Shown one piece after another: positions 3,309-8,603 of a stretch of 64,000 nt of DNA. The notes beneath the pieces are model-generated. The model ran no database searches. It was not told the DNA's origin and was given only the letters and a program-made list of their open reading frames with translations. Within the stretch, counting starts at the first letter, position 1, and every line of letters starts with the position of its first letter. The translations under genes and the position numbers were made by a program. The DNA lies in NCBI GenBank assembly GCA_016938675.1, contig JAFGUF010000033.1, positions 1 to 64,000 on the forward strand, in the 5' to 3' direction. The stretch is from Clostridia bacterium. Lineage in GTDB: Bacteria > Bacillota > Clostridia > Christensenellales > UMGS416.

Positions 3309-3728
3309 ATGGAAAATAATTTTAAGAAAATATATGGCGTTATGGGCATAATCGGCGAAGCAATAGGCATCGGTGCGTTCATTTTGGCCATAAGCAAAAA
3401 TGTATTTGCAAACACAAGCTATGTAGTATTAATATCTGCACTTTTTGTGCTGCTAATCATTGCACGCGTGATTTCGCTGTTTAAAAACTCAAAAATCTTT
3501 TCAGGAATAGGCGAATTCTATATGTCCATAGTCAAGGGGCATATTTCTCTGATGCTCGGAGCATGCATAATGATATCCGTACTGATGTTCATCAATGGCA
3601 AGGCCTTTTCTGATACAATAGTTATCCTTGTAATAACTGCGGTATTCATGTCAACAATGCTGATGTTCATGATCGGCACCTTTGAAAAAATAAGAAAACT
3701 CTCCGAAGAAAGCGAGAAGGAAGAATAA
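3309..3728 (+). CDS. Small multi-pass membrane protein of unknown function
   Basis: About four hydrophobic segments; stop codon directly abuts the hflX start (TAA|ATG). Confidence 0.65.
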   Translation: MENNFKKIYGVMGIIGEAIGIGAFILAISKNVFANTSYVVLISALFVLLIIARVISLFKNSKIFSGIGEFYMSIVKGHISLMLGACIMISVLMFINGKAFSDTIVILVITAVFMSTMLMFMIGTFEKIRKLSEESEKEE

Positions 3729-5543
3729 ATGGAAGACCAGGAATACGGAAAAGTCCACGGAAATATAGAGGGCATAAAAAAATCAATACTTAGTGAACTG
3801 GAGGAACTTTACTCTGCGGACATGGAGCTGCTTCGGCACAAATTCATATCCGACGATGTAACATATAAGCTCTGCCAGATAACTGAAAAAATCAACAAGG
3901 AAATATCCATATATATTGCCCGTGACGGAATGGTTATGGATGTATCTATCGGTTCTCACGACAGGGTAGGCCTGCCGGACATAAGGGTGCGCAGAGGCAA
4001 GCGCCGACTGACAGGCGTGCGCTGCATACATACCCACCCGGGGCAAAGCGGCACATTGTCAGACGTTGATATTAAAACCCTTCACAGAATGCGCTTTGAC
4101 TCAATGGCAGCAATAGGTGTAAGAGACGGCCTGGCTACGTCCATGCAGGCAGCCATATTAACCGAGCTTAAGGAAAACGGTGAATACGAATCCACTCTTT
4201 ACGGGCCATACCAATACAACAGTATACCCCACCAGAAGCTGCTGGATGAAATAGAGTATGCAGCTGAGCATATAGGCAAAACGGCCAATATACTAGATAG
4301 CCTGGAAAAAGAGGAAGAGAAAGCTATCCTTGTAGGTGTAGTACCTTCAAGCGACGACACCTCATCAATTGAGGAGCTTGCACGCCTTGCTGACACTGCA
4401 GGCGCCCAGGTTATACTAAGGGAGCTGCAGGTGCGGCATAAAATTGACTCCGCAACATATATCGGAAAAGGCAAGGTTTCGGAACTTTCGCTGGTTAGAC
4501 AATCAACCGATGCCAATCTATTTATATTTGACGACGAATTATCCGGAGCGCAGATCAGAAATCTGGAAAGAGAACTAGGCTGCAAGGTAATAGACCGCAC
4601 AGCATTGATACTGGATATTTTCGCTGCCCGTGCTACGACCCACGAAGGCAAGCTGCAGGTGGAGCTTGCGCAGTATAAATACCGCCTGCCACGCCTTGCA
4701 GGAACAGGAGTTCAACTTTCCCGCCTAGGCGGCGGCATAGGCACCAGAGGCCCGGGTGAATCTAAACTCGAGACTGACAGAAGGGCGATACACAGCAGAA
4801 TACACGACCTTGAATCCCAGGTTAGCCGGCTAAAAAAACGTCGCGACATCAACAGAATGCAGCGGGTTAAAAACGCTGTGCCAATAATTGCCTTGGTTGG
4901 CTATACAAACGCCGGCAAAAGCACATTGCTAAATGCTATAACCAAAAGCAATGTCAACGCAGAAGATAAACTCTTCGCTACACTTGACCCGGTAACAAGA
5001 AGCATGAGTCTTCCTAACGGAACAGAAATCCTCGTGACCGACACCGTAGGTTTCATTAATAAATTGCCCCATGATCTAGTCGACGCCTTCCGCTCCACAC
5101 TGGAGGAAGCTGTGCATGCGGATATACTTATCCATGTTGTGGACAGCTCTTCGCCCGAAATGATGATGCAGTTCAATGTGGCAAAGCAGGTGCTGGATTC
5201 CTTAGGGGCTGGCGACAAGAAAAGAATAGTCGCATTAAACAAAATTGACATTGCAGATCAAGACAATCTGCCGCTTTTTGATCATGGTGAGACAGTCGTG
5301 CGCATCAGCGCCTTCAACGGAACAGGTCTTGATAAGCTCTTTTCCGAAATAGAAACTATACTCAATGAAAACACAAAAGTGATTGAAATAACCATACCTT
5401 ACTCAAAAGGAACCCTTTCAAACTATGTCTTTGACAACGCGGAAATCATAGAAAAGGAATACAAGGATGAGGGCGTTTACCTGAAAGCGCGGGTATCAAA
5501 CGAAATGGATATGAAAATAGCCTCCGCCCTAAAGGAGCAATAG
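3729..5543 (+). CDS. hflX: GTPase HflX with N-terminal JAMM/MPN-like domain
   Basis: HflX core: GGGIGTRGPGESKLETDRR, GYTNAGKSTLLNAIT, DTVGFINKLPHDLVDAFRSTLEE, NKID. N-terminal approx. 190 aa contains IHTHPGQSGTLSDVD. Confidence 0.93.
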   Translation: MEDQEYGKVHGNIEGIKKSILSELEELYSADMELLRHKFISDDVTYKLCQITEKINKEISIYIARDGMVMDVSIGSHDRVGLPDIRVRRGKRRLTGVRCIHTHPGQSGTLSDVDIKTLHRMRFDSMAAIGVRDGLATSMQAAILTELKENGEYESTLYGPYQYNSIPHQKLLDEIEYAAEHIGKTANILDSLEKEEEKAILVGVVPSSDDTSSIEELARLADTAGAQVILRELQVRHKIDSATYIGKGKVSELSLVRQSTDANLFIFDDELSGAQIRNLERELGCKVIDRTALILDIFAARATTHEGKLQVELAQYKYRLPRLAGTGVQLSRLGGGIGTRGPGESKLETDRRAIHSRIHDLESQVSRLKKRRDINRMQRVKNAVPIIALVGYTNAGKSTLLNAITKSNVNAEDKLFATLDPVTRSMSLPNGTEILVTDTVGFINKLPHDLVDAFRSTLEEAVHADILIHVVDSSSPEMMMQFNVAKQVLDSLGAGDKKRIVALNKIDIADQDNLPLFDHGETVVRISAFNGTGLDKLFSEIETILNENTKVIEITIPYSKGTLSNYVFDNAEIIEKEYKDEGVYLKARVSNEMDMKIASALKEQ

Positions 5544-5545
5544 CG

Positions 5546-7258
5546 TTGGATACTTTCTGCCTTGTAGCTCTGAACTCACAGTATGTGCACACGAACCTTG
5601 CAGTAAGGCTTATTAAAAACACTGATCAATACAATAATACCTGTATTATAGAGCATACTATAAACAATCAAATGGACCTAGTGCTCGAAGATATCGTACT
5701 TAAAAGTCCAACATGCGTGATATTTTCATGCTATATCTGGAACATTGAATATGTTATGCTGCTGTCATCAAGCATAAAGAAAATCCTTCCTGATTCATCC
5801 ATTGTTTTGGCAGGGCCGGAGGTTAACTACAACGGAAAAGAAATACTCCGTCAGCATTCATATATTGACATAGTATGTGCAGGCCCCGGAGAAATAATAT
5901 TCCCGCAGCTGCAGGATGGCATTATGCTTAGGGATTTAGTTCCAGTAGAAGGCATATGCTATCGGCAGGAAAATGAAATACGCGAAAACCCCATCGTAAG
6001 CAAATATGATATAAACACACAGAAATTCCCCTACTATGATATTGAGGATGTAAAGGACAGAATACTGTATTTTGAAACAAGCAGAGGCTGCCCATATAAC
6101 TGCTCCTACTGCATATCATCCATAACAAAGGGTGTTGATTTTATGTCGATTGAAAAGGTGGAGGAAAGTTTCGAAATATTCTTCAGGCACAATGTAAACC
6201 AGGTCAAGCTCGTGGACAGAACGTTTAATTATCCTTTGAAGAGAGCGGTACAAATAATTGAAATAATGCTCAAACTCAAAGATAAATATCCAGATTCAAC
6301 TACATCATTCCACTGCGAACTCAATCCTCTCCTTATAAATGATGAGTTTGTTAAGCTTTTGAAAAAAGCCCCTGATAATTTTCTACAGTTTGAAATAGGT
6401 GTGCAGTCAACAAATCCTCATACATTGAAAGAAATTAACAGGGATTTCAACCTCGAAAAACAATATGAAAATATATCAAAACTTACCGAGCTTAAAAACA
6501 TAAAAGTATTCGTGGACTTAATAGCAGGACTGCCCCACGAAACATTTGATATATTTAAAAAATCTTTCAACGATACATATCTTCTGGGTGCTGGCGGGCT
6601 GCATCTCGGCTTCCTTAAGGTGCTCAAGGGATCAGAAATGGAGAAAAACGCAGAAAACCACGGAATAGAGTACAGCAGCTATGCCCCATACAAAATACTT
6701 AGATCGACATATATCTCCTTTGAGGAATTATGCAGGCTTGAAAAAATCGAGAGCCTGGTAGATACCTACTACAATTCAGGGAGATTTGTAAATAGCCTGA
6801 GATATGCATTGGCATTTTTTGATTCACCATTCAGTTTCTATGACCATTTCAGAATGTATCTAGAAAAAAGGTACTACTTTATAAAGCCGCATAAGTTTAT
6901 CACATACTATGATTTTCTTAATGATTTTCTTTCGGAAATTGGGGCTGTTAACACGGAATATCTGGAAAATTTACTTCTTCATGACTATGCATGCCACTCA
7001 AAGCCCAGAAGCTACCCAAAATGCATCAAAAGCGCATACAGCGAAAAAAAGAAAAAAGCTGTAAGAGAATTCTTCAGCAATAATGAATATATAGAAAAAT
7101 ACCTGCCTCACTTAGCCGGAATGCCTTCTGGCAGCATAAGCAGGATATGCAATATCGAAATCTTTAATTTTGATATTCTTGAAAAAGAAATATCTGAAAA
7201 AGATATAGTTGTTTTATACGATTACAAGGACAAAACCAAAGTGTACAAAGTCCTTTGA
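5546..7258 (+). CDS. B12-binding-domain radical SAM protein (DUF4080-type)
   Basis: TTG start with GGAGCAA upstream; N-terminal cobalamin-binding-like domain; ETSRGCPYNCSYC radical SAM CxxxCxxC; DLIAGLPHE. Confidence 0.85.
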   Translation: MDTFCLVALNSQYVHTNLAVRLIKNTDQYNNTCIIEHTINNQMDLVLEDIVLKSPTCVIFSCYIWNIEYVMLLSSSIKKILPDSSIVLAGPEVNYNGKEILRQHSYIDIVCAGPGEIIFPQLQDGIMLRDLVPVEGICYRQENEIRENPIVSKYDINTQKFPYYDIEDVKDRILYFETSRGCPYNCSYCISSITKGVDFMSIEKVEESFEIFFRHNVNQVKLVDRTFNYPLKRAVQIIEIMLKLKDKYPDSTTSFHCELNPLLINDEFVKLLKKAPDNFLQFEIGVQSTNPHTLKEINRDFNLEKQYENISKLTELKNIKVFVDLIAGLPHETFDIFKKSFNDTYLLGAGGLHLGFLKVLKGSEMEKNAENHGIEYSSYAPYKILRSTYISFEELCRLEKIESLVDTYYNSGRFVNSLRYALAFFDSPFSFYDHFRMYLEKRYYFIKPHKFITYYDFLNDFLSEIGAVNTEYLENLLLHDYACHSKPRSYPKCIKSAYSEKKKKAVREFFSNNEYIEKYLPHLAGMPSGSISRICNIEIFNFDILEKEISEKDIVVLYDYKDKTKVYKVL

Positions 7259-7259
7259 T

Positions 7260-8603
7260 TTACCCTTTCTTTATTATATTAAGCAGCGCGTCTGATATCT
7301 TCGGGTCAAACTGCGAACCAGTGCAGCGCTTCACCTCGTCAATAGCATCCTGCTGGGTCATCTTCCTTTTCACGTATGGGCTGTTCAGCATATTGTCATA
7401 TGAATCAACCAGTGTGAGAATTCTAGCTATTAGTGGAATTTCCTCGCCTTTAAGCCCTGAAGGATACCCTGTTCCGTCATATCTTTCGTGGTGGCACTTC
7501 ACTATTTCTGCAATGTGATACATATCTCCAAGGCCGTAAATTATCCTGTACGATGTGACAGGATGCTGCCTTACTATATCCCATTCTTCGTCTGTTAGCG
7601 GCCCCTGCTTCCCAAGGATTTCATCCGGGATTGCAACCTTGCCAATATCGTGCATTTCAGCCGCTACTGAAAGTGTATTCTTCTGTTCCTGATTAAGACC
7701 CAGTTCTTCGCCAAGAGAGAGCGCCAGCCCTTTTACTCTGGATATATGAGCAGATGTTTCAAAGTTTTTCTTTGATAATAGATTCTTTAGGTTTTGTATA
7801 ATAGAGGCGTTAAATTTCGTACTCTCCACTATTCTGTTGGCATACAGGTTTTGCTCCGCTTGCTTAATCAAAAGTGTTGCACGCTCATTCTCGCTCTCTT
7901 TATATGCTATTCCAATCGAGAAACTTGGCGGAATCATCGATTCAGTTTCTTCGCTGCACATTGCTTCAATCTTGCCCAATATCTCCTGCCTGCAGTTTTC
8001 GCCGCAGAGAGGGCAAAGCAGAAGGAATTCATCTCCGTTCATCCTAAAAAGCTTGCTGTCTACAGGGGATGCGCTGTTGATTATTATTGTGCACTTTTTC
8101 AGCAGTGCATCGCCTTCAGCATAGCCGAAGGCCTCATTTGTGAGCTTCATTCCGTTTACATCAAACATTATTATGGATATTGGCAGGTTTTCCGGTCTGT
8201 CTATCTCCTTAAGCGCTGTCTCCAAATTGTGCCTGTAATGTGTATTCGTCAGCATATCATACTGTGAAGTATGCTGCTCTTTCCTTCTGCTCTGCTGCTT
8301 TTCGGTGTAGTCATTTATACCTATAAATATATTGCCGGCCTTCTTAAGGCAGGCTATCTTAGCCCATTTCATTTTAAGGTTAGGACTGAAAACCGCAAAC
8401 ACTCCGTCTACCTTTTCTTCATCGCATTTCAGGAAATATTCCATCTTTGCAATGTCAGGCTGCGATACTATGGAAAGAACATTACTGCTGCCCTCCGGCA
8501 ATATATTGCTGGGCATTAGTGTATTTCCGTCCTTATCGACTGATAGGACGTGCTCATATACCATAGAAAGTACATTTAATACGCTGCTTACATCATTACT
8601 CAT
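7260..8603 (-). CDS. GGDEF/HD-GYP domain signalling protein
   Basis: FRMNGDEFLLLCP (degenerate GGDEF); HDIGKVAIPDEIL...HHERYDGTGYPSGLKGEEIPL (intact HD-GYP). Confidence 0.9.
   Translation of the reverse strand: MSNDVSSVLNVLSMVYEHVLSVDKDGNTLMPSNILPEGSSNVLSIVSQPDIAKMEYFLKCDEEKVDGVFAVFSPNLKMKWAKIACLKKAGNIFIGINDYTEKQQSRRKEQHTSQYDMLTNTHYRHNLETALKEIDRPENLPISIIMFDVNGMKLTNEAFGYAEGDALLKKCTIIINSASPVDSKLFRMNGDEFLLLCPLCGENCRQEILGKIEAMCSEETESMIPPSFSIGIAYKESENERATLLIKQAEQNLYANRIVESTKFNASIIQNLKNLLSKKNFETSAHISRVKGLALSLGEELGLNQEQKNTLSVAAEMHDIGKVAIPDEILGKQGPLTDEEWDIVRQHPVTSYRIIYGLGDMYHIAEIVKCHHERYDGTGYPSGLKGEEIPLIARILTLVDSYDNMLNSPYVKRKMTQQDAIDEVKRCTGSQFDPKISDALLNIIKKG

Follow-up and report, generated by a model that had tools for sequence, protein, structure and literature searches.

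The sole HflX of this Clostridia bacterium (assembly GCA_016938675.1) almost certainly begins with a domain of the JAMM superfamily, which occupies residues 1–~195 ahead of a complete HflX core. We conclude that this N-domain represents a new JAMM subfamily, outside Prok-JAB and RadC. HflX is a bacterial GTPase that splits stalled ribosomes, and the explanation that we favor, giving it as a whole an even chance, is that the N-domain is a zinc JAMM hydrolase that HflX delivers to a ribosomal substrate.

The hflX gene and its JAMM signature

The gene lies in a stretch of 64,000 nucleotides of contig JAFGUF010000033.1 (hereafter referred to as the window), and its features are listed in Table 1. 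Its product matches the HflX equivalog TIGR03156 of NCBIfam over residues 198–544 (460.6 bits; cut-off, 216.75), the one above-cut-off match to this model in the genome, and every core Pfam domain of HflX is present. For residues 1–~195, Pfam and NCBIfam searches gave no accepted match. The TAA stop codon of the upstream 139-residue open reading frame abuts the ATG of hflX, and a purine-rich, ribosome-binding-like stretch is present for the hflX start. This start is therefore credible, and the two frames are likely to be co-translated. A Pfam search with the 139-residue product returned nothing above a cut-off. The radical SAM gene downstream likely belongs to the hflX operon; no such neighbor was found beside hflX in the other carriers examined. 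Adjoining the operon is a gene on the minus strand (7260–8603) for a 447-residue protein, in which GGDEF-like and HD-GYP-like stretches were recognized by eye.

Table 1. Features of the hflX locus, in coordinates of the window
Feature	Position	Strand	Evidence or remark
Hydrophobic ORF upstream of hflX, 139 aa, GAAGGAAGAATAAATGG	3309..3728	+	ORF list
hflX with N-terminal JAMM domain, 604 aa	3729..5543	+	TIGR03156
JAMM/MPN-type N-domain, residues 1–~194	3729..4310	+	AlphaFold2 model; profile matches to JAMM structures; sub-threshold Prok-JAB/RadC
E58, putative catalytic Glu	3900..3902	+	Strand start behind helix
R65, conserved Arg	3921..3923	+	116/128 rows; 7/7 degenerate rows
Arg-rich stretch R88–R98	3990..4022	+	R98 124/128, R89 98/128; R98 in 7/7 degenerate rows
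HTHPGQSGTLSDVD, putative zinc ligands H101, H103 and D114, with S111	4029..4070	+	Residues 101–114
Variable linker from JAMM domain to HflX domain 1, residues 195–211	4311..4361	+	Low pLDDT; variable columns
GTP-bdg_N (PF13167), HflX N-terminal domain	4362..4625	+	111.3 bits
GTP-bdg_M (PF16360), helical middle domain of HflX	4629..4865	+	102.9 bits
GTPase domain (PF01926)	4887..5243	+	77.9 bits
HflX C-terminal domain (PF19275)	5286..5504	+	32.5 bits
B12-binding radical SAM protein with DUF4080	5546–7258	+	Starts 3 bases behind hflX stop

The segment HTHPGQSGTLSDVD is an exact H-x-H-x7-S-x2-D, which reads H101-T-H103-P-x6-S111-x2-D114. A six-frame set of 117 ORFs from the window contains the pattern once, where 0.036 occurrences are expected after shuffling; in the shuffled HflX protein it is expected 0.002 times. 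An initial annotation had pointed to this JAMM signature before the HflX core and to an upstream Glu placed like the catalytic Glu of JAMM enzymes, and both readings hold: E58, the Glu of KEISIYIARDG, stands 43 residues ahead of H101, a spacing found equally in 104 of 128 homologues.

Relation to JAMM families and predicted fold

To place the N-domain among known families, we used an alignment of 78 site-bearing copies (A1). When its profile was compared with all PDB sequences, the best match was to AMSH-like/Sst2 (E 1.4e-4), and the top 14 sequences were all JAMM proteases of the AMSH-like, Sst2 or STAM-binding protein type, aligned over up to 58 positions that include HTHP and S-x-x-D. Lower matches, at weak E-values, were to Prp8, the MPN-family protein 2kcq and Rpn11. 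In Pfam, the members of A1 that matched at E <1 hit Prok-JAB (46/78) and RadC (29/78), with other families hardly recurring; the best RadC match among the 78 had an E-value of 5.6e-4. The window domain itself belongs to neither family, scoring 12 bits against a cut-off of 25 for Prok-JAB (PF14464) and giving no match to the RadC-like JAB family (PF04002). A true RadC is encoded separately in this genome. In hhalign comparisons, the N-domain gave 54–90% with the RadC alignment, depending on the direction, and 7–32% with Prok-JAB; the accepted families Prok-JAB and RadC gave 33–35% with each other, and HflX control domains gave <1%. Masking of the motif abolished the signal for the N-domain and between accepted JAMM families alike, and the sequence relation is thus motif-led.

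A structural model of residues 1–204, built by AlphaFold2 from an alignment of four sequences, had a pLDDT of 81.9 and a pTM of 0.80. Its order is a helix, a strand headed by E58, more strands, an H-x-H that closes a strand and a helix that begins with D114; the elements around E58 are helix H42–55 and then strand E59–64. In a Foldseek search of the PDB with this model, ranks 2–19 were JAMM/MPN proteins or complexes, with PfJAMM1 (probability 0.98), CSN5 and Rpn11 among the first, at modest scores (E 0.0015 or weaker; TM-score ≤0.48). GAF domains appeared further down the list. JAB/MPN proteins also ranked high in a Foldseek search of viral models. The initial annotation had proposed structure prediction as a check and would have given up its reading for a structure without an MPN fold; JAMM/MPN matches lead instead, and the model lends moderate support to a predicted MPN fold. 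Another fold with a look-alike motif, arisen by chance or convergence, is hardly credible: modest fold scores, GAF domains in the list and a model from four sequences only leave it some room, but the five residues are conserved, the order and spacing of strands and helices fit, and JAMM proteins lead each independent search. The full-length model was poor (pTM 0.42; low pLDDT at residues 187–239), and the placement of the domain relative to the HflX core is therefore not obtainable from it.

Conservation and distribution of the fused domain

We fetched 130 N-domain loci for comparison, and in 130/130 the HflX core follows the N-domain in one frame. The counts given here were made on 128 aligned rows, or 127 homologues, unselected for the site; the 'invariant' list of A1 is not independent evidence, because A1 holds only copies with the site. 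The E58 position is E in 122/128 rows, H103 is kept in 122/128, and H101, S111 and D114 are each kept in 121/128. All five residues are present in 120 of the 127 homologues in which the five positions are aligned, so that the conservation of E/H/H/S/D across long HflX proteins, which the initial annotation had named as a check, proved to be high rather than poor. Pairwise identity among the site-intact N-domains is 33% in the median and reaches down to 16%, and the top-conserved positions, G75 and R98 aside, are E/H/H/S/D and the T between the His residues.

In the remaining seven of the 127 homologues, the H/H/S/D set is lost together, and E is gone too in five. Six of them form one supported clade, a pseudo-enzyme lineage (L091–L093 and L096–L098) with a JAMM-type domain lacking H/H/S/D and mostly E, whereas L110 stands separate. 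Loss of H/H/S/D as a set is what one functional unit would be expected to show, and as judged from the alignment, the five JAMM residues behave as a unit that is either kept or lost. Two genomes of the site-less clade (G745 and G687) carry a separate Prok-JAB gene. R65, G75 and R98 are present in 7/7 site-less copies. Because these homologues otherwise retain the domain despite the loss of its metal site, a non-catalytic role would also exist; the rest of the N-domain may thus have a further role, possibly docking, for which the Arg-rich stretch R88–R98 is a possible surface.

The site-less copies, with their retained R65, G75 and R98, could also mean that the domain is altogether a docking or regulatory module, which would tune splitting while bound to rRNA, a partner or a ribosomal protein, with zinc in a structural or regulatory part. 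The N-terminal extension of mycobacterial HflX, which contacts the ribosome and aids splitting (PMC12493154), is in line with such a module, but it has 39–58 residues as compared with ~195 here. Moreover, S111 and E58 are kept in the great majority of copies though needless for structural zinc; a merely structural metal is disfavored for this reason, and we regard the module as a rather unlikely account of the domain.

Matches to the N-domain were found in 90/200 genomes of the order, 117/391 of the class and 66/399 of the phylum. The initial annotation's belief that similar N-extensions occur in other Firmicute HflX proteins is thus borne out, the extension being widespread in Bacillota. Its carriers include many gut and anaerobic relatives of this organism. 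HflX is present in 279/382 genomes of the class draw; since the draws of 391 and 382 contain nearly, not exactly, the same genomes, about four in ten HflX of the class carry the N-domain. HflX lengths in the class draw fall into two main groups, of ~360–510 and 580–660 residues. In a phylogeny of the core region, HflX proteins of both kinds are interspersed, with seven parsimony changes, at least two of which are forced by well-supported branches. This sequence-based history fits an ancient fusion with repeated loss; repeated gain of the N-domain is the alternative. Fusobacterium animalis and F. vincentii also carry the fusion, the F. animalis copy being annotated 'GTPase HflX'. Among the matches listed for the order, class and phylum draws, the N-domain occurred only twice in frames <300 aa, once at a contig end; with no separate gene for it found in these matches, the N-domain apparently needs HflX with it. 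Searches of virus and phage collections gave a single IMG/VR contig (L148) with a full JAMM-HflX, and a search of annotated phages found no fused HflX; the 'viral' contig is probably host DNA or misassigned.

The gene order U32 peptidase, dUTPase, JAMM-HflX, NUDIX, YigZ family and YebC is shared by five loci (L170, L172, L174, L177 and L178), and translation-related neighbors in some lineages include the EF-G family, YebC and the YigZ family. These neighbors provide a translation setting without pointing to a substrate. No conserved neighbor that could be considered as a substrate is common to the window and other carriers. At one locus (L169:11414–14038), a gene adjoining that of JAMM-HflX encodes an EF-G-like protein with a fused NYN domain of the YacP type.

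Proposed function and comparison with known systems

In the mechanism that we propose, the most likely zinc ligands are H101, H103 and D114; E58 would activate water and S111 would steady the intermediate. The conservation of this set suggests that the N-domain is probably an active hydrolase. The HflX part would bind the 50S subunit in a GTP-dependent manner. On the 50S subunit, domain 1 of HflX lies near H69 and the helical domain reaches the peptidyl transferase centre (PMC12493154). Because the JAMM domain is joined to domain 1, it would be located on the 50S subunit's interface side, where the flexible linker would let its active site reach the subunit interface. The most likely reaction of the site would be the cleavage of a peptide or isopeptide bond in something carried by stalled or split ribosomes, with the nascent chain or a ribosome-bound protein as candidate substrates. 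That the substrate is ribosome-associated we consider slightly short of an even chance. Somewhat more tentatively, HflX of Bacillota and Fusobacterium may deliver a JAMM protease to stalled ribosomes, such that rescue would consist of subunit splitting plus proteolysis. Several observations speak against our preferred explanation: one clade keeps the domain without a metal site, many related HflX proteins lack the domain, no conserved neighbor points to a substrate, the sequence relation is motif-led, the fold scores are modest and no Pfam or NCBIfam cut-off is reached.

Bacterial JAMM proteins act on varied amide bonds, and an active hydrolase might instead have a non-ribosomal substrate, such as a free peptide, a small molecule or its own linker, whose cleavage would free the GTPase core. 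In favor of this, the linker is variable and predicted to be flexible; however, its alignment contains no conserved cleavage-like site, and the matches listed gave no separate gene for the N-domain. We consider a non-ribosomal substrate unlikely, to the same degree as the docking module. JAMM zinc proteases remove ubiquitin in human cells, and the nearest solved structures are deubiquitinases, which might suggest a deconjugase for ubiquitin-like proteins of the ThiS/MoaD type or of a defence E1/E2/JAB set. This is very improbable, since the 96%-complete genome has no above-cut-off match for a ThiS/MoaD-type partner and this HflX matches no PADLOC JAB model (CBASS-type), whereas the control JAB protein L153 matches many. 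Processing of a bL27 leader was also considered and rejected for this genome: its bL27 starts MAHKKG, without a leader to cut. The Prp protease was searched for in this genome and not found.

If our preferred explanation, a ribosome-directed JAMM hydrolase, is true, ribosome splitting and proteolysis would be physically coupled in about four in ten HflX of the class. The putative site is defined to the residue (E58, H101, H103 and D114), which makes the question directly testable, and the clade without the metal site offers a natural control.

In the literature searched, which comprised papers open without subscription, we found no description of HflX joined to a JAMM, JAB, Mov34 or metallopeptidase domain. 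Some HflX homologues confer resistance to macrolides and lincosamides (PMC6310831), and extended HflX is known in 'several Clostridium spp.', with the domain unnamed (PMC12493154). The mycobacterial extension, which likewise lies ahead of HflX domain 1 and is active in ribosome splitting, reaches uL16 and helices H38 and H69–71; no zinc motif is described in its 39–58 residues (PMC12493154). With HflX as defined by TIGR03156, the present protein shares the complete core of GTP-bdg_N, GTP-bdg_M, G domain and HflX_C, from which it differs in ~195 additional N-terminal residues that contain a JAMM site. With the RadC-like JAB and Prok-JAB families, its best though weak Pfam matches, the N-domain shares H-x-H-P-x6-S-x2-D; it differs in falling below their curated cut-offs, in being fused to a GTPase and in lacking the E-x-x-G-x-L-x-G found around the Glu of Prok-JAB rows. 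The AMSH/Sst2 JAMM deubiquitinases, the nearest solved structures by sequence profile, are eukaryotic and ubiquitin-specific and, unlike JAMM-HflX, have no GTPase part. Finally, Rpn8 and eIF3 subunits are MPN-type domains whose metal sites are lost; the seven site-less homologues resemble these non-catalytic proteins, whereas most copies of the HflX N-domain keep the site.
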